A DNA stretch of 21,822 bases, taken from positions 1-21,822 of IMG/VR virus record IMGVR_UViG_3300046376_000092. One strand, given 5' to 3'. Position numbers and translations under genes: made by a program. Below, one piece after another: positions 10,354-18,247 of this stretch. Position 1 is the stretch's first letter. Each line of letters begins with the position of its first letter. This DNA is from a virus. The notes under the pieces were generated by a model, which was not told the origin of the DNA, made no database searches, and saw only the letters and a program-made list of their open reading frames with translations.

Positions 10354-11286
10354 TCAGGTCTCGACGTTGGTGATCCAGAGGGCGGCCTTCGGCTGGTCGA
10401 TGACGACCGCCGACTGACGAAGCGTATCAGAACGCCACGTCTCGTTGGACCGCTTCTCCTCGTAGAGCGGGGTGGAACGCAGAGCCCGCTCGTCACCGAT
10501 ACCGCCGAGGACCTTGCGCTGGAGAAGCAGGGCACGATCCGGCGCGAGCCGGTCCATTTCCCGCGACACCATGATGGTGAGGCCGTAGAACTCGCCGGGA
10601 AGCGTTCCCTTGTACTCCGGGGACTTCTCGGCCAGGTTCGCGCCGTTGCGGTACACGGCGTTGAAGTCGTCCGACGTGATCAGGTCGGTCCGCGTCTTGC
10701 GACCGATGACCAGCGTGTCCGCTTCGAAGCCGTAGTAGTTGTCTGGCGAGTCGACCGGAGCCGCGTCGCCAATCCGGCGCTGGCCATCGGCCAGGTCGAA
10801 TCGGATCTTGGAACCCGCGCCGTCCCACGGAGCCGTCGAGGCCATGGTCGGGATGTCGGGGTGGTTCAAAACGGCCTGCAGGAACACGGTCTCCCAGGTG
10901 CGCAGCATCGTGTTCTTGATCTGCGTCATCTGGGTGTTGACCCGATCGACCGCGTTGCGGTTGATCATTTCCTGCGAGACCTTCAGGCCGAGAGCCCGCT
11001 TGACGGTGAACGCGACCTTCCGCGCACCGACCTTGCCGGACACGACCGGGATCTCCCCGAACTCCTCGACGATCTGCGCGTCCTCGTCAGCGAAGAGCGG
11101 GGTGCTCTCCTCGTAGACGTAGACGCCAGACTGCGTCGGCGGGAGCTTGCGGAGCAACGCATCCACGATGAACTGCTGTTCGAGCGTGGAGACGATGCGC
11201 TTCGGGATGATCGTCGGCTGCTTCACCATCGCCGAGACGGTGAGCTTCGGGCCATCCTGGAAGCTGACGCTCTTGTGGAGAGCCAT
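10354..11286 (-). CDS. Major capsid protein (HK97 fold)
   Basis: This 310-residue protein begins MALHKSVSFQDGPKLTVS. The ATG is preceded by the purine-rich GAAGGGAAAGGG. Features expected of the HK97-fold shell protein are a spine-helix type segment (ERTQMTQIK-like region, NAVDRVNTQMTQIKNTMLRTWETVFLQAVL, about residues 112-142), the P-domain sequence DTLVIGRKTRTDLIT, and the C-terminal LPGEFYGLTIMVSREMDRLAPDRALLLQR. It is placed after the decoration gene and before the connectors. It would form the icosahedral shell after scaffold removal by the nearby protease. Confidence 0.93.
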   Translation of the reverse strand: MALHKSVSFQDGPKLTVSAMVKQPTIIPKRIVSTLEQQFIVDALLRKLPPTQSGVYVYEESTPLFADEDAQIVEEFGEIPVVSGKVGARKVAFTVKRALGLKVSQEMINRNAVDRVNTQMTQIKNTMLRTWETVFLQAVLNHPDIPTMASTAPWDGAGSKIRFDLADGQRRIGDAAPVDSPDNYYGFEADTLVIGRKTRTDLITSDDFNAVYRNGANLAEKSPEYKGTLPGEFYGLTIMVSREMDRLAPDRALLLQRKVLGGIGDERALRSTPLYEEKRSNETWRSDTLRQSAVVIDQPKAALWITNVET

Positions 11287-11314: not shown

Positions 11315-11773
11315 TCAGCCGTTGATCTTGGCGAGGCCGAGAGGGTTGGTGGCGAACACGACGCCACCCGGCTCCCAGCAGCGTCCGACGATGGTCCGCG
11401 CATCCGGCGTCACGCCTGCCGGAGCGACGGTGCCGTTGGCCGTGGCGACCAGCGGGTCACCGAACGCGGCGTTGGCGGAGTACAGGACGGGGTAGACGCC
11501 TTCGATGGCGACCGCCGTGAACTCCGTGATCTGGGTCACGTCGACCGTGACGTTGCCGAACGCGTCCGTGGACTCGTTCGACGCCGGGACGCGAGCGTCC
11601 TTGGTGGCGACACCCATCACCTTGACCGACGCAGCCGCAGCGACACCGACATTGCCGATGCCGAAGTTGGTGACTGCGGAGGTCCGGGCCTCGACCAGCT
11701 GGCCACCCTTGACGGTCTCCAGCACACGGCAAGTGATCGGTCCGGCGACGAACTTCGGAACCACACCTGGCAT
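11315..11773 (-). CDS. Capsid decoration / head stabiliser protein (DUF2190-like)
   Basis: This 152-residue beta-rich, alanine-, valine- and glycine-rich protein begins MPGVVPKFVAGPITCRVLETVKGGQLVEA. The later GVYPVLYSANAAFGDPLVATANGTVAP and the C-terminal DARTIVGRCWEPGGVVFAT match the DUF2190 type of small phage capsid proteins. AGAGGT lies before the ATG. It sits directly upstream of the major capsid gene, the usual place for decoration proteins that bind the outside of the expanded shell. Cys15 and Cys135 are its only cysteines. Confidence 0.78.
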   Translation of the reverse strand: MPGVVPKFVAGPITCRVLETVKGGQLVEARTSAVTNFGIGNVGVAAAASVKVMGVATKDARVPASNESTDAFGNVTVDVTQITEFTAVAIEGVYPVLYSANAAFGDPLVATANGTVAPAGVTPDARTIVGRCWEPGGVVFATNPLGLAKING

Positions 11774-11815: not shown

Positions 11816-12526
11816 TTACTCGCCGTACATTTCGGTCCACGCGGACAGGTACGCCGCGTCGGGATCGGCCTTGCCGATCGTACCCGACTCGACCGAGTGC
11901 CCCATTTCGGGCGTGAGGTCGATCATGCCGGTCATCCCGTCGAGCATCTTGTTGATGACGTCCTTCGGGTCGATCTTGCCACCGCCCGACTCCGAGAGGT
12001 CGATGGTCATGACCTCCGGGGAGGAGACGACCGGCTCCGCGAGGTCCAGCAGGAACGGCGGGACACCCGCGCCAGCCAGTTCCTTACGGCGGGTCTTCCA
12101 CTCGGACGTCGCGCGCTCCGAACGCCACTGGGCGAACTCGTTGGAGAGGTTCGCGACGGCACCGGCCTCCGCGCCGAGGTTACCGCCCGGGTCGAGCGCT
12201 TCCTCCTCGACTGTGGTGGTGGTCTTCCGCTTCCGGGGGTTGGAACCCTGACCACCCTGGACGACCTGGGGAACCTGACCGTTGGCCGGGTCCACCGCTT
12301 CCGGATCGGCCTCTTCCTCTTCGAGCCCCTCTTCGAGCTCGTCCGGGTCGACCTCGTCCTCTGCGGGCTTCTCGACCGGCAGGCCGGTCTCCGGGTCGAT
12401 CTCGACCTCATCGGTGCCCAGGTCCAGCAACGCCTCGAACTCGTCGTCCGAGAGCTTCGACAGATCCAGGGTCGCGGTCCGGGTCTTCTTGTCGACCGAG
12501 CCGAGCTTGATGGCACTGTTGGCCAT
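11816..12526 (-). CDS. Nested in-frame scaffold protein (internal start at Met180)
   Basis: The ATG at 12526 inside the protease gene is preceded by CAGGAAGGAATCAGGAC, giving AAGGA about 8 bases upstream, as good as the ribosome sites of neighbouring genes. The product would be 236 residues beginning MANSAIKLGSVDKK. It would contain the acidic and helical scaffold part but not the protease domain. Mu I/Z and lambda C/Nu3 use the same nested arrangement. The site itself is seen in the sequence; its use is inferred. Confidence 0.65.
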   Translation of the reverse strand: MANSAIKLGSVDKKTRTATLDLSKLSDDEFEALLDLGTDEVEIDPETGLPVEKPAEDEVDPDELEEGLEEEEADPEAVDPANGQVPQVVQGGQGSNPRKRKTTTTVEEEALDPGGNLGAEAGAVANLSNEFAQWRSERATSEWKTRRKELAGAGVPPFLLDLAEPVVSSPEVMTIDLSESGGGKIDPKDVINKMLDGMTGMIDLTPEMGHSVESGTIGKADPDAAYLSAWTEMYGE

Positions 12527-13063
12527 GTCCTGATTCCTTCCTGAGTAGGTCTCGGCCGTCAAGTCCACGACCTCGAAGTTTTCCGCCCCCGACAGGTCAA
12601 CAGCCTGCCACGGTCGGAGCCCCGTGATACGGGGGTCCATCGTCGCCAGAACGTGCTGGATTGCTCCAGTGAACTTCCTGCCGTCCGCCTTCGCCAGCCC
12701 TTGAACAATCCGGGCCGACACCCCCAGTCTGGGGTTCTTTCCGACCAGAGCCGCACCCTCGCGGGTGAGATCGACCACCATATCGAGCCCATCGCCGGTG
12801 AAGATGAGGTCCTTGACCTCACCTTCGAACAGCCTTGGGTCCATGTGGTGTTCGTTCCGTTCGTTTGCGAGTACGAACGGGACCTGATCGTAGGCCCGCT
12901 GCTTGAACGAGCGAGCCAAGTTCATGAGGTAGGGCTTGTCGAACGTGATCCGACGGCCCTTGTAGTTGATCGTGGTCAGCGGAAGGATCTGCTTGCGGAA
13001 TCGCGTCTTGCCGACGCGCCGCGCGGTGGACAGATCGATCGGCGTGAGGAGTACGTTCGTCAT
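11816..13063 (-). CDS. Prohead maturation protease fused to scaffold (Mu I-like)
   Basis: This protein has 415 residues and its ATG lies one base after the previous stop. The N-terminal ~170 residues are protease-like: ITFDKPYLMNLARSFKQRAYDQVPFVLANERNEHHMDP, then EGEVKDLIFTGDGLDMVVDLTREGAALV and LGVSARIV. By analogy with Mu I and related head proteases, His72 or His73 and Ser116 are candidate catalytic residues. Residues ~205-265 are extremely acidic (EEGLEEEEADPEA). Residues 270-415 are mixed helix with hydrophobic segments such as LSNEFAQWRSERATSEWKTRRKEL, as expected of scaffold. The protein would direct shell assembly and then cut scaffold and itself. A good internal start at residue 180 suggests a separate scaffold product. 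Confidence 0.8.
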   Translation of the reverse strand: MTNVLLTPIDLSTARRVGKTRFRKQILPLTTINYKGRRITFDKPYLMNLARSFKQRAYDQVPFVLANERNEHHMDPRLFEGEVKDLIFTGDGLDMVVDLTREGAALVGKNPRLGVSARIVQGLAKADGRKFTGAIQHVLATMDPRITGLRPWQAVDLSGAENFEVVDLTAETYSGRNQDMANSAIKLGSVDKKTRTATLDLSKLSDDEFEALLDLGTDEVEIDPETGLPVEKPAEDEVDPDELEEGLEEEEADPEAVDPANGQVPQVVQGGQGSNPRKRKTTTTVEEEALDPGGNLGAEAGAVANLSNEFAQWRSERATSEWKTRRKELAGAGVPPFLLDLAEPVVSSPEVMTIDLSESGGGKIDPKDVINKMLDGMTGMIDLTPEMGHSVESGTIGKADPDAAYLSAWTEMYGE

Positions 13064-13064
13064 T

Positions 13065-14021
13065 TCAGACCCCCACAGGATTCTTCGGAGCGGCGTAGGC
13101 TTTCTTCAGCGCCGCGTTGAGGATCTTCTTGACGTTGTCTGGCTGTCCTGGGACCGCCAGCAGACGCTTCAACTGGCCGGAACTGAACTTCGCAGCGGTC
13201 CCAGGAGTCATCGACGCGTATCGGACTTGAGCCGGATCGGCCTTCACGTCTTCGTTCACGCCAGGGCCGACCCACTCGGTGAGTTGCTGCTTCCCGCCGA
13301 AAATCGCTACGACGTACTTCTTGCCGTTGCGAACCGTCTTCTGGTCGTCGGGGATCTGGTCCCAGGATTGCTTGGCTCGCTGGGTGACCCCTCCGCCCTT
13401 GGACGCTTCCTTCTTCGCACCGACCTGGACGCGCTGCGATGCGGTGGCGTCTTTCGTCTGAGCAGCGCCACCAAGCCGAGCCGCCGACGTTGCGTGGACC
13501 GTGCCCCCACCTTCGGCTTTGGCCGTCACACCCTTGGTGGCGTTCCCAAACAGACGGTTGATCCGCTTCCGAGCGATCGAGGAACCCTTCGCCTTCGAGT
13601 TCTTGGCCTTCTCGTCGAGCGGGACGAACCCGTGACCCCACTTGCCTTGGTTCTTGAACGACGTCCGACCGTCCTTGGTCAAAGCGAGGTCGATGACGTT
13701 GTTCAAGATCGACGCGGCGAGGTCGACCTTCCACTGCTTCGGGATCAGCCGGGGCAGGCCGAGAGAACGAGCGCGGCTGATGATGTGCTTCTTCGCCGCT
13801 GCCGGGTCCTTCGCTCGACCGAACGCCTGAATCGCGTTCCGCAGGTCCTGCTCGTTGCGGATCGGGAAGCTGGTCGTGCCGGGGATGGTTTGTCCCTTGG
13901 CAGCCGCTTCCTTGCGGGCAGCGACCGGGAAGGCGAGGTCGAGGATTGCAGCCCTGATGCGGGCTTTCTGTTCCGGATCGGAGATAGCTCTAGCGCGTTC
14001 AATCATTGCGCTGAGTTCCAT
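13065..14021 (-). CDS. Possible nested product of the 2H-domain gene (internal start at Met290)
   Basis: The in-frame ATG at 14021 has GGAGGGG 4-5 bases upstream, one of the strongest Shine-Dalgarno sites in the window. It begins MELSAMIERARAISDPEQKAR just after a proline/alanine linker at a domain boundary. The product would be 318 residues without the phosphoesterase domain. Its use is inferred from the site only. Confidence 0.5.
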   Translation of the reverse strand: MELSAMIERARAISDPEQKARIRAAILDLAFPVAARKEAAAKGQTIPGTTSFPIRNEQDLRNAIQAFGRAKDPAAAKKHIISRARSLGLPRLIPKQWKVDLAASILNNVIDLALTKDGRTSFKNQGKWGHGFVPLDEKAKNSKAKGSSIARKRINRLFGNATKGVTAKAEGGGTVHATSAARLGGAAQTKDATASQRVQVGAKKEASKGGGVTQRAKQSWDQIPDDQKTVRNGKKYVVAIFGGKQQLTEWVGPGVNEDVKADPAQVRYASMTPGTAAKFSSGQLKRLLAVPGQPDNVKKILNAALKKAYAAPKNPVGV

Positions 14022-14888
14022 CTTCCCCTCCTTCGGATACGCGGCTGCTGAGGGCAGTGTAGCACTCTCAGGTTCATCTGCGCCAGCCTGGGGTGAAGCC
14101 GCCCCCAGCGGGATCTCGGTTCTCTGCTCGTTACCCCTGACCACCCAAACCGAATCGAACGCCACCGGGGTTGCGGGCAGCGGATCCGGCTGGTCATCGT
14201 AGCTGATGGTTACGTGCGGCGTGTAACCGTGTTCGGTGTTGGCGGGGTAGTCCGACCCTTGGAGTGCCTGGCAGAGGTGGTAACGGAACTCAGAGAGTCC
14301 AGGGACGTCAACCAAGGCGAGCCAAGGAGTACCCTGGTCGCCTGCCGGGAACGCACCAATCCCTCCAATAGTGCCCTTGAGTGCCTCGCCGTAATCGGCG
14401 GCACACTTGCGAACGATCTCGACGATGGTGTTGTACCCATCATCGTCCTCCACTTCGCCGTTGTACGCCAAGGTGATGTGCAGGTCCTTGGCTTCCGTCC
14501 CACCCGGAACCGCGATGTCCCCCGCCGTGGGCTCGGGGATCATGAACGCCACCATGCAGGCGGTGGCGCTGATGTCCGGCTCAGCCAGGTTCATGTGAGC
14601 CGCTCCCCGCTTCGCTTCCCACTCCGAGACAGCCGCAGCAGCCAAAGCCTGCGTCTTTGCCGTGATGTGCTTCGTCGTGCCGTTCTTAGTAACCGTTCCG
14701 CCTCTGGCCCAACGCTTGACGGTGTTGACGGCAGTTGCAATAGCACGAGAGATCGAGTAGCCGCGTTCGTAATGGAGATGCTCCGCAATTCGCTCGATGT
14801 AATCCGGGAGCCCCCCAGCCCTTTCAACCCAGTTATCCGGGCCACCCGGTTTACGCTCCAGCCCCGGATAGACGCGACTCGAAACCAC
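13065..14888 (-). CDS. Multidomain head-module protein with 2H phosphoesterase-like domain
   Basis: I chose the GTG at 14888 (607 residues) because GGAGG lies 8 bases upstream; the frame stays open 5' of it inside the portal gene. Residues ~16-62 (GPDNWVERAGGLPDYIERIAEHLHYERGYSISRAIATAVNTVKRWARGG) match a short helical module common in actinophage head proteins. Residues ~108-260 contain His137-Ile-Thr139 (LHITLAY) and His225-Val-Thr227 (PHVTISY), the paired HxT motifs of 2H phosphoesterases / 2'-5' RNA ligase-like enzymes. Residues ~338-386 (SFPIRNEQDLRNAIQAFGRAKDPAAAKKHIISRARSLGLPRLIPKQW) are another module common in phage head genes. The rest is basic and disordered (430-520), with a helical C-terminus. 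It replaces the MuF-type gene expected between portal and protease. Enzyme activity is inferred. Confidence 0.75.
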   Translation of the reverse strand: MVSSRVYPGLERKPGGPDNWVERAGGLPDYIERIAEHLHYERGYSISRAIATAVNTVKRWARGGTVTKNGTTKHITAKTQALAAAAVSEWEAKRGAAHMNLAEPDISATACMVAFMIPEPTAGDIAVPGGTEAKDLHITLAYNGEVEDDDGYNTIVEIVRKCAADYGEALKGTIGGIGAFPAGDQGTPWLALVDVPGLSEFRYHLCQALQGSDYPANTEHGYTPHVTISYDDQPDPLPATPVAFDSVWVVRGNEQRTEIPLGAASPQAGADEPESATLPSAAAYPKEGKMELSAMIERARAISDPEQKARIRAAILDLAFPVAARKEAAAKGQTIPGTTSFPIRNEQDLRNAIQAFGRAKDPAAAKKHIISRARSLGLPRLIPKQWKVDLAASILNNVIDLALTKDGRTSFKNQGKWGHGFVPLDEKAKNSKAKGSSIARKRINRLFGNATKGVTAKAEGGGTVHATSAARLGGAAQTKDATASQRVQVGAKKEASKGGGVTQRAKQSWDQIPDDQKTVRNGKKYVVAIFGGKQQLTEWVGPGVNEDVKADPAQVRYASMTPGTAAKFSSGQLKRLLAVPGQPDNVKKILNAALKKAYAAPKNPVGV

Positions 14889-16302
14889 GCTTCGGCCCTC
14901 CAAGCTGCTGCTGGTTCCGGACAATTGCGTTGGTCGCGGCACCGACCGCACCCGAGACGAACCCAGCCTTCTCCGCGAACGGGTTGCCGGGGTTCGCCGC
15001 CTGTAGCTGGGCCGACGCTTCCAGCCCCTGCTTGGTCAGCCCCTGCCGAACGACCTGGGTGTTCAACCCCAAGAGCCCCGCGACCCGTTCGATCAACTCG
15101 TCCATGAACGCCTTTGGCAGGACCTGGTTCGGGGACTGCGCCGTCGCCTGGAGGAGAGCAATGGCCTGGGTGGCGTCGTCCTCCTGAATCGGCCCAAACT
15201 CGAACTCCGGGCAGTCGGCGGTCGGACCGAAATTGTATCGAACCAGGTCAGCGATCAGGAAGTTCGTGATCGTGTCCGCTACTTCCCTCGCGTCCGCGTC
15301 TCGGCCCATCTGAAAGAACGAAGTCTGATCTTTCGACAGAGCGAAGGACCCGGTCCCAGAAGCAGCAGCCGCCCCCAAGTCCGTGAACCCGGCAAGGACG
15401 CTCCCGCTTGCCTCCGCGTCCAGCCACCTCAGCGCCGACAGGAATTGGTCCGCTCCTTTACCTGACGATTCGAGGACGTCGGTCGTGATCTGGTCAGTCA
15501 GACCGACAACGCCACCCTGCCTAAGGGTGATCAACTTGGCAGCCGCCTTGTTCGCGTCGGTCTCAGTCCTCGACCGGACGATCGTCTTCGGAAGCGACTG
15601 TCCTTCGAGGAACTGATACCACAGGAAACGGATCTTCTGCTTCGTGATGTAACACCAGTGCGCGATGTCCAGGTCGCTTTTACCCTCGAGTGGGTTACGG
15701 TGCTGGTTGTGGATGTAGACGAACGCGCGTTGCGGCTTGATCCAAATCTCTTCGGTGTCCTCGTATCGGATCGGCATCTGCCGGTAGCCCTTGAACGAGC
15801 CGAACTTCTGGTCCCGGACGATCGCGCAAGTCGTCGGGGGACGCCACGCGACCTTGTCGTAGACCACACGGAGTTTGTCGTTGACCTCACGGATCGTCAG
15901 GACCTTCTCGTGGAACGACTTGCGGTAGGCGATCGCCATCAACATCTGGCCGATCACGACCCGCATCGGCGTCGACATGCCGCCGTTGTTCGCCGGAGCG
16001 TTGAAGAAGTCGTCGATGAACTTGTGGACCGCGAGGTCGCTGGTCCCCTTCTTGATCGTGAACCGCACGTTGCGGACCGGGAGGGTCAGAGCCTGCAACA
16101 GCGTCTCCGCCTTGCCGTCCACGGCCAACATGTCGTCGGTCTCGTTGACCTGCGCGAGGTCGTAGTTGAAGATGTTGCCGTCGTCGAAGCCCTGGAACAG
16201 CAGCGTCTCGTGGTCGAACTGGCTCCCGAGCTCGTCGTCCAGCAACGATGTGATGTCCTCGACGTCAGAACCCTCGTGAAGCGGAACTACCGAACCCGCC
16301 AT
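14851..16302 (-). CDS. Portal protein (DUF935 / Mu gp29-like)
   Basis: This 483-residue protein begins MAGSVVPLHEGSDVED. I chose this ATG over one three codons earlier because AGAGGA then lies 8 bases upstream. It overlaps the large terminase end by 38 bases. Portal-like features are VRNVRFTIKKGTSDLAVHKFIDDFF, MLMAIAYRKSFHEKV, the crown-to-stem segment AHWCYITKQKIRFLWYQFLEGQSLPKTIV, and the later QITTDVLESSGKGADQFLSALRWLDAEASGSVLAG, a stretch resembling the DUF935 class. It would form the dodecameric ring at one vertex and the docking site for terminase and connectors. The C-terminal ~60 residues are Q/A-rich with a glycine-rich end. Confidence 0.88.
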   Translation of the reverse strand: MAGSVVPLHEGSDVEDITSLLDDELGSQFDHETLLFQGFDDGNIFNYDLAQVNETDDMLAVDGKAETLLQALTLPVRNVRFTIKKGTSDLAVHKFIDDFFNAPANNGGMSTPMRVVIGQMLMAIAYRKSFHEKVLTIREVNDKLRVVYDKVAWRPPTTCAIVRDQKFGSFKGYRQMPIRYEDTEEIWIKPQRAFVYIHNQHRNPLEGKSDLDIAHWCYITKQKIRFLWYQFLEGQSLPKTIVRSRTETDANKAAAKLITLRQGGVVGLTDQITTDVLESSGKGADQFLSALRWLDAEASGSVLAGFTDLGAAAASGTGSFALSKDQTSFFQMGRDADAREVADTITNFLIADLVRYNFGPTADCPEFEFGPIQEDDATQAIALLQATAQSPNQVLPKAFMDELIERVAGLLGLNTQVVRQGLTKQGLEASAQLQAANPGNPFAEKAGFVSGAVGAATNAIVRNQQQLGGPKRGFESRLSGAGA

Positions 16303-18247
16303 ACAGATCATCCTCTCGGAGTTGGTTTTCCTTATCGTTCAGCCAGTTCTCTACAGCGTCGGCGGGGACCCATCGAAGTGCTTCACGATCGTCGGGGGAG
16401 TCGCTCGTCTCCCACCAGGGTACAGCACGGCCGGTTTCCGTGTAAAATTCGGAGCTCTCAGAGTCGGTCCAGTACGCCTGGACGACACTGTCGCCGGAGT
16501 CGGTGGACCGCCCTAGACGTTTACGGATGTCGTCCTTGGACTCGATCTTGATCACGCCACCGGACTCATAGGCCACACGGGGTGCCACGAGGTCAGCGCG
16601 TAACAACTCGTCGTCGGGGAGCATGATTTCGGAGCCGGTGGCGGGGTCGAGCAGCTCGCGCAAGTTCCACCACGCCGCAGCCCTTAGATTCTTGAACTTC
16701 CACTCCCCGCTCCGGTCCTTCACCGGGACACCCGTGGCGCTTTTCGCGCTCGCGGACGCGTTAAAAGCAAGGTTTGGGACTTGGAGCTCTCTCATCCTGT
16801 CGACGACTCCCGCGCCGACCCCGATCACGTCGACGACCGCAATGTCGGCGGGGTTCGTGAGGAGAGCTACGATGTGCCCAGTGGTCTCCATCGTGTCGGA
16901 GTAATGGAACTTTCGGATGGATTCAACGGCCCAACCTCGCCGGATAGCGAGGCTGGTGGAATCTTCACCGAAGCGAGCGATATCAGCGCCAACGACCCTG
17001 CGGGGGTCGCCGGTTTGCGGACGACCTGCGTCGTTCCAGTTGTTCCAGCGGACGATCGCCGCCTCGATCCAGCCAAGCGGAATGACCCCGTCTGTGTTGC
17101 TGTCTGGGAAGAGCCCCCGCACTTTGGCCGTGAAGAGCGAGCTTTGCGAGGCCAACTTCGCAATGGAGTTGCCTTCGCTGGGGGCTCCCACCCAGCGATG
17201 CAGGCGTTCCTCGACCCAGAGCGGTGAGATGAGAGAATCGGCAACTCTCTCCGATACAGGCTCTTCGGAATAGGGGATTTCTTCTTCACTTAAGAGGTCC
17301 TCCAGTAGGCTTGTCGACCGGCCGGTGAGCTCGCATTGCAAGCATTCCTTCTGCTCGATCAACATCCGGACGTTCGCGGCAGACATGTTGGGTGAGCGCA
17401 AACCGTCGATGCGGATGACGTTCCAACCTGAGCCGGGTTTGCAGACCCGCGCGAAATGTGAGGTGGGGTCGTCGGGGTTGCCGATCACGAGGACCCGTGC
17501 GTTCTTGTTGGTGGCGAGAGCGTCAACGGCGTTGAACAGTTTGACGTCGACGCCGCTAGCTTCGTCGATGACGATGAGGATGAATGGTGCGTGGATTCCT
17601 TGGAACGCGGAGTCGGCGTAGTCGGCGGGTTTACGTCCGTAGCCGACTAGTTCGCCGTCGAGCTTCCATTGCGGGTACCCGGCGGTGATGATGTTGCCCG
17701 CGAGCTCACCTTTCTTGTGCGCTTTCTGGACTTCTCTCCACAGGATAGCGCTTACCTGCGCTGCGGTCGGGGCAGTCGTTACCACGAAGGCATCGCCCGG
17801 GGGGTGGGCATCGATCCAGTTCGCTATCGCTCTGGAGGCGATGTAGCTCTTGCCTGCGCCGTGGCAACTCTGAACCGCTGTGTAGCGGTGGCTTTGCAAG
17901 CTGTTGCTGATGGCGATCTGTTTGGTCCATATGCGCTCTCCCAGCTTGTATTCGATCCACGCCGCCAAATTCTTGTAATAGTCGGGGATCGGCTCGAAGT
18001 CCTTCGCCGCGATGTCAGCCGGATCCGGAATGTCATAACCACTGTAGCCAGGGGTTAGTTTAGTAGGGGGGGATGTTCGCCCCCGGACCCCCGGAACGCC
18101 ACCAACCCCGACGTCTTCCAAAGGGGAATCCTTGAGCCCTTCGGAAACCAAGGCGTCCCAGTCGACCGCGTCCAACGGGTTCGGCGGTTTGGATGCTTTC
18201 TGCGGGGCTTGGCCGACCTTCCCTCGACTCTTCGGCTGGCCCGCCAT
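16265..18247 (-). CDS. Terminase large subunit
   Basis: This 660-residue packaging motor begins MAGQPKSRGKVGQAPQ. The ATPase domain has the Walker A motif SCHGAGKS (127-134), Walker B ILIVIDEA (223-230) and coupling motif VIGNPDD (254-260). The C-terminal nuclease has Asp422 in VVGADIARFGED, Asp473 in VVDVIGVGAG and Asp586 in GDSVVQAYW, the three-acid RNase H-like pattern. A Cys-containing insert at about 300-345 (ECLQCELTGRSTSLLEDLLSEEEIPY) separates the domains. The start shares TAATG with the small subunit stop, and the end overlaps the portal. It cuts and translocates concatemeric DNA into proheads. The first ~80 residues are proline-rich and probably disordered. Confidence 0.96.
   Translation of the reverse strand: MAGQPKSRGKVGQAPQKASKPPNPLDAVDWDALVSEGLKDSPLEDVGVGGVPGVRGRTSPPTKLTPGYSGYDIPDPADIAAKDFEPIPDYYKNLAAWIEYKLGERIWTKQIAISNSLQSHRYTAVQSCHGAGKSYIASRAIANWIDAHPPGDAFVVTTAPTAAQVSAILWREVQKAHKKGELAGNIITAGYPQWKLDGELVGYGRKPADYADSAFQGIHAPFILIVIDEASGVDVKLFNAVDALATNKNARVLVIGNPDDPTSHFARVCKPGSGWNVIRIDGLRSPNMSAANVRMLIEQKECLQCELTGRSTSLLEDLLSEEEIPYSEEPVSERVADSLISPLWVEERLHRWVGAPSEGNSIAKLASQSSLFTAKVRGLFPDSNTDGVIPLGWIEAAIVRWNNWNDAGRPQTGDPRRVVGADIARFGEDSTSLAIRRGWAVESIRKFHYSDTMETTGHIVALLTNPADIAVVDVIGVGAGVVDRMRELQVPNLAFNASASAKSATGVPVKDRSGEWKFKNLRAAAWWNLRELLDPATGSEIMLPDDELLRADLVAPRVAYESGGVIKIESKDDIRKRLGRSTDSGDSVVQAYWTDSESSEFYTETGRAVPWWETSDSPDDREALRWVPADAVENWLNDKENQLREDDLYGGFGSSASRGF

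Follow-up and report, generated by a model that had tools for sequence, protein, structure and literature searches.

The product of a minus-strand gene in the head cluster of the window, by which we mean the whole 21,822-nucleotide stretch of viral DNA analysed, contains a 2H phosphoesterase domain (residues ~108-262; 14103..14567, minus strand) that is an optional, functionally constrained passenger of that gene. Modelling predicts, with high confidence, that the domain has a genuine 2H fold and that its catalytic tetrad is intact; it is very likely an active enzyme. The best explanation, which we advance tentatively, is that the gene (13065..14888, minus strand; 607 residues, GTG start) occupies a slot in the head cluster and that its 2H domain is an enzymatic passenger which may be packaged, injected and directed, most likely, against a defence nucleotide.

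The sequence-only reading of this DNA had proposed that two HxT motifs, with His137 and His225 as their histidines, fit the 2H pattern, and the profile and structural evidence bears this out. The motifs (H137-I-T139, 14472..14480; H225-V-T227 within TPHVTISY, 14208..14216; both minus strand) are separated by 88 residues. Pfam PF13563 (2_5_RNA_ligase2) matches residues 132-238 (E=5.3e-12), PHROG 14859 (E=6.5e-19) and PHROG 2659 (E=1.4e-16), both labelled RNA ligase, match the gene, as does TIGR02258 (E=1.3e-7, 31.7 bits), and there is a match to LigT_PEase below threshold; the PF13563, PHROG 14859 and TIGR02258 matches imply that the HxT pair is not due to chance. For residues 98-265 an alignment of 38 sequences gave an AlphaFold2 model with a mean pLDDT of 93.6 and a pTM of 0.89; it has the bilobal 2H core, and a core strand starts precisely at each of the two histidines, H137 and H225 (model residues 40 and 128). 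The top places in a Foldseek search are taken by Deinococcus CPDase, E. coli LigT and the rotavirus VP3 phosphodiesterase. VIA-align superposes the model on the bacterial CPDase 5h7e with Z 17.6 (155 residues, 2.8 A), followed by E. coli LigT (Z 15.3), Usb1 (Z 13-13.6), rotavirus VP3 (Z 13.2), the Burkholderia phage BCSR5 phosphodiesterase (Z 10.2) and FBB1 Acb1 (Z 9.8), such that CPDase and LigT are the closest solved structures (hmmsearch E 1e-9). In a profile alignment both histidines fall on the HxT histidines of PH0099 and CPDase; the conclusion that the two lie close together is based on the fold superposition and on the sequence alignment to CPDase. The best matches among viral predicted structures are head-region proteins of Gordonia and related phages that are either named RNA ligase or uncharacterised.

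The genomic setting is that of a head cluster, as had been proposed from the sequence. On the minus strand of the window the order is terminase large subunit (16265..18247; phrog_2 E=4e-30), Mu-type portal protein (14851..16311; PF06074 E=9e-39, phrog_113 E=6e-38), the 2H gene, a gene at 11816..13063, a small head gene resembling a head scaffolding protein family (11315..11773; phrog_673 E=1e-16) and the major head protein (10354..11286; phrog_1650 E=1e-77). The portal gene thus lies directly upstream of the 2H gene, which overlaps its 3' end by 38 bases and is preceded by a Shine-Dalgarno-like GGAGGG (14896..14901, minus strand) with a 7-nt spacing to the GTG at 14888. Of the earlier placement of the gene between portal and protease, the portal side stands; the 11816..13063 product is a probable prohead protease or scaffold-like protein which has no match in the domain and PHROG profile libraries, and its H72, S116 and H137, invariant in nine homologues, are no more than compatible with a prohead protease.

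The 2H gene itself appears modular. Its N-terminal module (residues 1-97, marked by KPGGPDNW; 14598..14888, minus strand) is shared by the slot genes of related viruses, whether or not these carry 2H, and its C-terminal region (residues 292-607; 13068..14015, minus strand) consists of small helical modules with low-confidence linkers between them. The full-length AlphaFold2 model is of low confidence (pLDDT 58.6) and was read for module boundaries only; in it low-confidence linkers flank the 2H domain on both sides. A Pfam search found neither PF04233 (MuF) nor a portal match in the gene, and a MuF, portal or protease identity, for which the libraries gave nothing but a weak phrog_80 match (E=0.01), was set aside. 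The motif KPGGPDNWVE is invariant in an uncharacterised module of ~95 residues present in the window (14598-14888) and in L004-L014, with a more distant copy inside Leaf gp58; this module matches no Pfam family at E<=0.1.

Comparison with related viruses reveals that the domain is dispensable to the slot. The nearest relative, L002, and, as far as its contig reaches, L003 share the gene order of the window, both with 2H. Eight other contigs (L004-L007 and L009-L012) have homologous portal and/or downstream head genes next to a slot gene in which the N-terminal module is present and 2H absent. One of these, L006, retains the C-terminal modules in part, so that the absence of 2H takes the form of one block spanning residues ~99 to ~287. 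On the 11 contigs of this 2H-less kind (4 to 53 kb, the longest 52.9 kb, with records that may be fragments) no 2H domain was found elsewhere. The occurrence of the slot gene without 2H beside homologous head genes implies that the domain is a removable passenger and that head assembly in this group is independent of it.

Removability is combined with strong constraint. A search of viral contigs with the single 2H sequence recovered no relatives, but an alignment-based scan with five rows did, yielding 68 loci in viral contigs, and 16 were found in bacterial and archaeal genomes. Among 86 distinct aligned domains His1, Thr1 and His2 are invariant and Thr2 is present in 83; the conservation of motif 2 is partly biased, as the search pattern favoured it, and the unbiased part is that of motif 1 and of the isolate-phage members found by tblastn. 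Loss of an HxT histidine in homologues, which was looked for, is thus not observed in any of the 86. Between the window and L002, dN/dS is 0.16 over the 2H region (74% identity), whereas it is 0.95 over the adjoining linker (residues 266-300; 40% identity), which indicates that the 2H domain is under purifying selection.

With respect to characterised 2H enzymes, the domain resembles ThpR/LigT, the bacterial and archaeal RNA 2',3'-cyclic phosphodiesterase, in its fold (Z 15-17.6) and in both HxT motifs, but it differs in that the Arg of HxTxxR is Tyr here and in being a domain of a phage head gene rather than a solo cellular enzyme. In E. coli LigT this residue, Arg130, lies five positions beyond the second His and keeps both the water nucleophile and the phosphate of the product in place (PMC5283653). 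The equivalent position is Y230 in the window (14199..14201, minus strand); of 77 phage or prophage head-type members 72 have Tyr there, the nine archaeal or Patescibacteria members all have Arg, and other cellular 2H proteins are variable, some having Tyr. Orthology with ThpR/LigT is ruled out both by this substitution of the catalytic Arg and by the TIGR02258 score, 31.7 against an equivalog cut-off of 65.7 bits.

The relationship to Acb1, which the sequence-only reading had raised, is not supported as a specific one. The domain shares with Acb1 (T4 57B, FBB1) the 2H fold, the tetrad (aligning with H44/T46/H113/T115 of T4 Acb1) and a closely similar second motif, YTPHVTISY compared with YTPHITLSY, and T4 Acb1 likewise has Tyr at the LigT Arg130 position. 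However, Acb1 is a small free protein whereas the 2H domain of the window is part of a head gene, and a recognisable Acb1 was rejected, given a PF23474 score of 15.8 against a cut-off of 27 bits and a fold Z of ~10 compared with 15-17.6 for LigT/CPDase. Acb1 employs aromatic base clamps for base stacking and an adenine contact by E141 (PMC9117128); its Y12, W74, F107, W147 and E141 align with M112, G183, E219, R251 and a gap, so that neither the stacking residues nor E141 are evident in the window domain, although the loops concerned are poorly aligned. Given the variable Arg130 position and the lack of evident Acb1 contacts in these poorly aligned loops, the substrate is not readable from sequence. 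In a family tree of 98 domains, which was not relied on, head-type and cellular 2H domains split weakly (79/93) and T4 Acb1 falls among the head-type domains on a very long branch.

The subfamily is widely distributed and is frequently fused to head proteins. In 64 full-length proteins scanned, 2H shares an ORF with Phage_portal (16), Peptidase_S78 (10), Portal_Mu, Phage_capsid and XkdF protease (2 each), and Mu-like_Pro and MuF (1 each), and PHROG portal families match 16 of the subfamily proteins and head maturation protease families up to 29. A MuF or portal fusion, absent from the window gene, is hence present in wider subfamily members. Among the isolate phages examined, the 2H gene lies just downstream of the portal in all 10 with an annotated portal. 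The genes of PHROG 2659 and 14859 deposited as RNA ligase in Gordonia, Arthrobacter and Streptomyces phages (including Kovu gp20, Charming gp14 and Lilbeanie gp16) belong to the same 2H subfamily and lie in the same portal-to-capsid position, but their domain identity to the window is only 27-37% and the remainder of each protein is unrelated or protease-fused. The 'RNA ligase' of Thermobifida phage P318, considered as a carrier, is a different, Rnl2-like protein. Prophage-like loci occur in contigs of Actinomycetota (Nonomuraea, Planomonospora, Sinosporangium, Streptomyces), Chloroflexota (Herpetosiphon) and Deinococcota (Calidithermus).

Conflict-type domains, i.e. Zeta toxin, NUDIX and a HipA-like kinase, are found in ORFs of the same kind. 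A single head-region ORF of one viral contig (L048:4456-6975) combines a Zeta-toxin-type kinase domain (E=6e-19) with 2H, a 1621-residue ORF (L042:1744-6606) has an intein, NUDIX and 2H, and in L086:5680-7560 a HipA-like kinase domain (PF20613, E=5e-7) comes after 2H. The major-capsid (PF05065) domain and 2H share an ORF in L076:4530-8033 and L092:5830-8898. A 2H-like domain with HLT and HVS motifs (subfamily profile E=2e-27) is located in the C-terminal part of the portal protein of Microbacterium phage Leaf (gp48; L017:3-911).

The idea of packaging combined with anti-signalling is not original to this work. Working from independent data, Iyer et al. 2017 reported fusions of 2H domains with MuF or portal proteins, inferred that they are packaged and injected, and proposed that they act as RNases or degrade defence nucleotides (PMC5512222); a 2022 survey repeats the packaging and effector proposal (PMC9503650). 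That 2H enzymes can be anti-immune is established by Acb1 (Hobbs 2022, PMC9117128) and by poxvirus LigT-like enzymes (Nomburg 2024, PMC11410667). The window gene is like the systems of Iyer et al. in that 2H is encoded within proteins of the portal-terminase head cluster; it is unlike them in that the slot gene carrying 2H is separate, has an N-terminal module of its own and shows no recognisable MuF or portal fusion. In the literature searched we found neither an experimental test of a head-carried 2H enzyme nor published virion proteomics of a carrier phage. Known anti-signalling enzymes, Acb1 among them, are not known to have been reported as virion cargo. What is added here is a clean case of presence and absence in one slot, the invariance of the catalytic residues, the Tyr signature, a count of ligase absence and a set of cultured phages, among them those of Gordonia and Arthrobacter, that would allow the proposal to be tested.

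With respect to mechanism, the slot-gene protein is probably packaged in the virion, and its 2H domain would then enter the host together with the DNA. Like other 2H enzymes, it would be expected to carry out metal-independent acid-base cleavage of a phosphodiester next to which there is a 2'-OH or cyclic phosphate. Its target is, tentatively, a host defence nucleotide, i.e. a cyclic di- or oligonucleotide or a 2'-5' or cyclic oligoadenylate, and the signal would be cleared before expression of the phage genes begins. The presence of an intact, constrained 2H domain beside the portal, its absence from related slots and its fusion elsewhere to proteins of prohead building or interior would all favour a packaged effector. 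Against cargo, portal and capsid fusions would need to be cut free for injection, and no cleavage site was identified; against a nucleotide signal as the target, the fold is nearer to RNA-processing CPDases and the base-stacking residues of Acb1 are not evident in the poorly aligned loops. No PADLOC model matched the 2H gene.

The likeness to CPDases bears most directly on RNA-end processing, in which the domain would open 2',3'-cyclic phosphates on tRNAs or other RNAs cut by defence nucleases, as a CPDase or ThpR/LigT-like component of RNA repair. Although the nearest solved structures (Z 15-17.6; hmmsearch E 1e-9) and the 31.7-bit TIGR02258 match speak for such a role, we consider it unlikely. 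Of 33 carrier records only one has an ATP-grasp RNA ligase (PF09414) and none has RtcB, which weakens the RNA-repair reading, even if host ligases could still serve, and which makes the deposited name 'RNA ligase' misleading; this scarcity is in line with Iyer et al. 2017, where 2H versions were never associated with RNA ligases (PMC5512222). The replacement of the ThpR Arg (E. coli Arg130) by Tyr in 72 of 77 members also argues against it, and a late head gene is an odd site for a repair function unless its product is packaged.

Packaging is shared by another explanation, namely that the domain is a Usb1-like RNase effector which trims or cuts host tRNA, guide RNA or mRNA early in infection. 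Iyer et al. 2017 preferred this reading on the analogy of PBECR RNases, which occur in fusions with MuF or portal proteins (PMC5512222), and the fold matches include Usb1 (Z 13-13.6); the likeness is, however, weaker than that to CPDase, the 2H gene shows no recognisable RNA-binding module, and we regard such a role as improbable. The steady location of the domain in the head cluster might instead reflect an assembly or structural role, with 2H serving within the prohead to bind packaging factors or nucleic acid and not as a delivered effector. This is very unlikely: related viruses whose head genes are homologous lack the domain in this slot, and the strictness with which the catalytic His and Thr residues are conserved points to chemistry. 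Optionality among close relatives is easier to reconcile with a packaged effector than with a component of assembly.

A broader and more doubtful proposal than the packaged, anti-signalling passenger of the window is that a widespread head-carried 2H subfamily, marked by TPH[VI]T..Y with Tyr in place of the LigT Arg, preloads the virions of many tailed phages and erases alarm signals before gene expression, with substrates distinct from those of Acb1 and LigT. Should the domain instead prove to be an RNA processor, the common annotation would still need correction. If the idea of a packaged anti-signalling enzyme is right, it would explain many deposited 'RNA ligase' genes that lie between portal and capsid genes, and an enzyme arriving with the DNA could act ahead of the peak of the host response.
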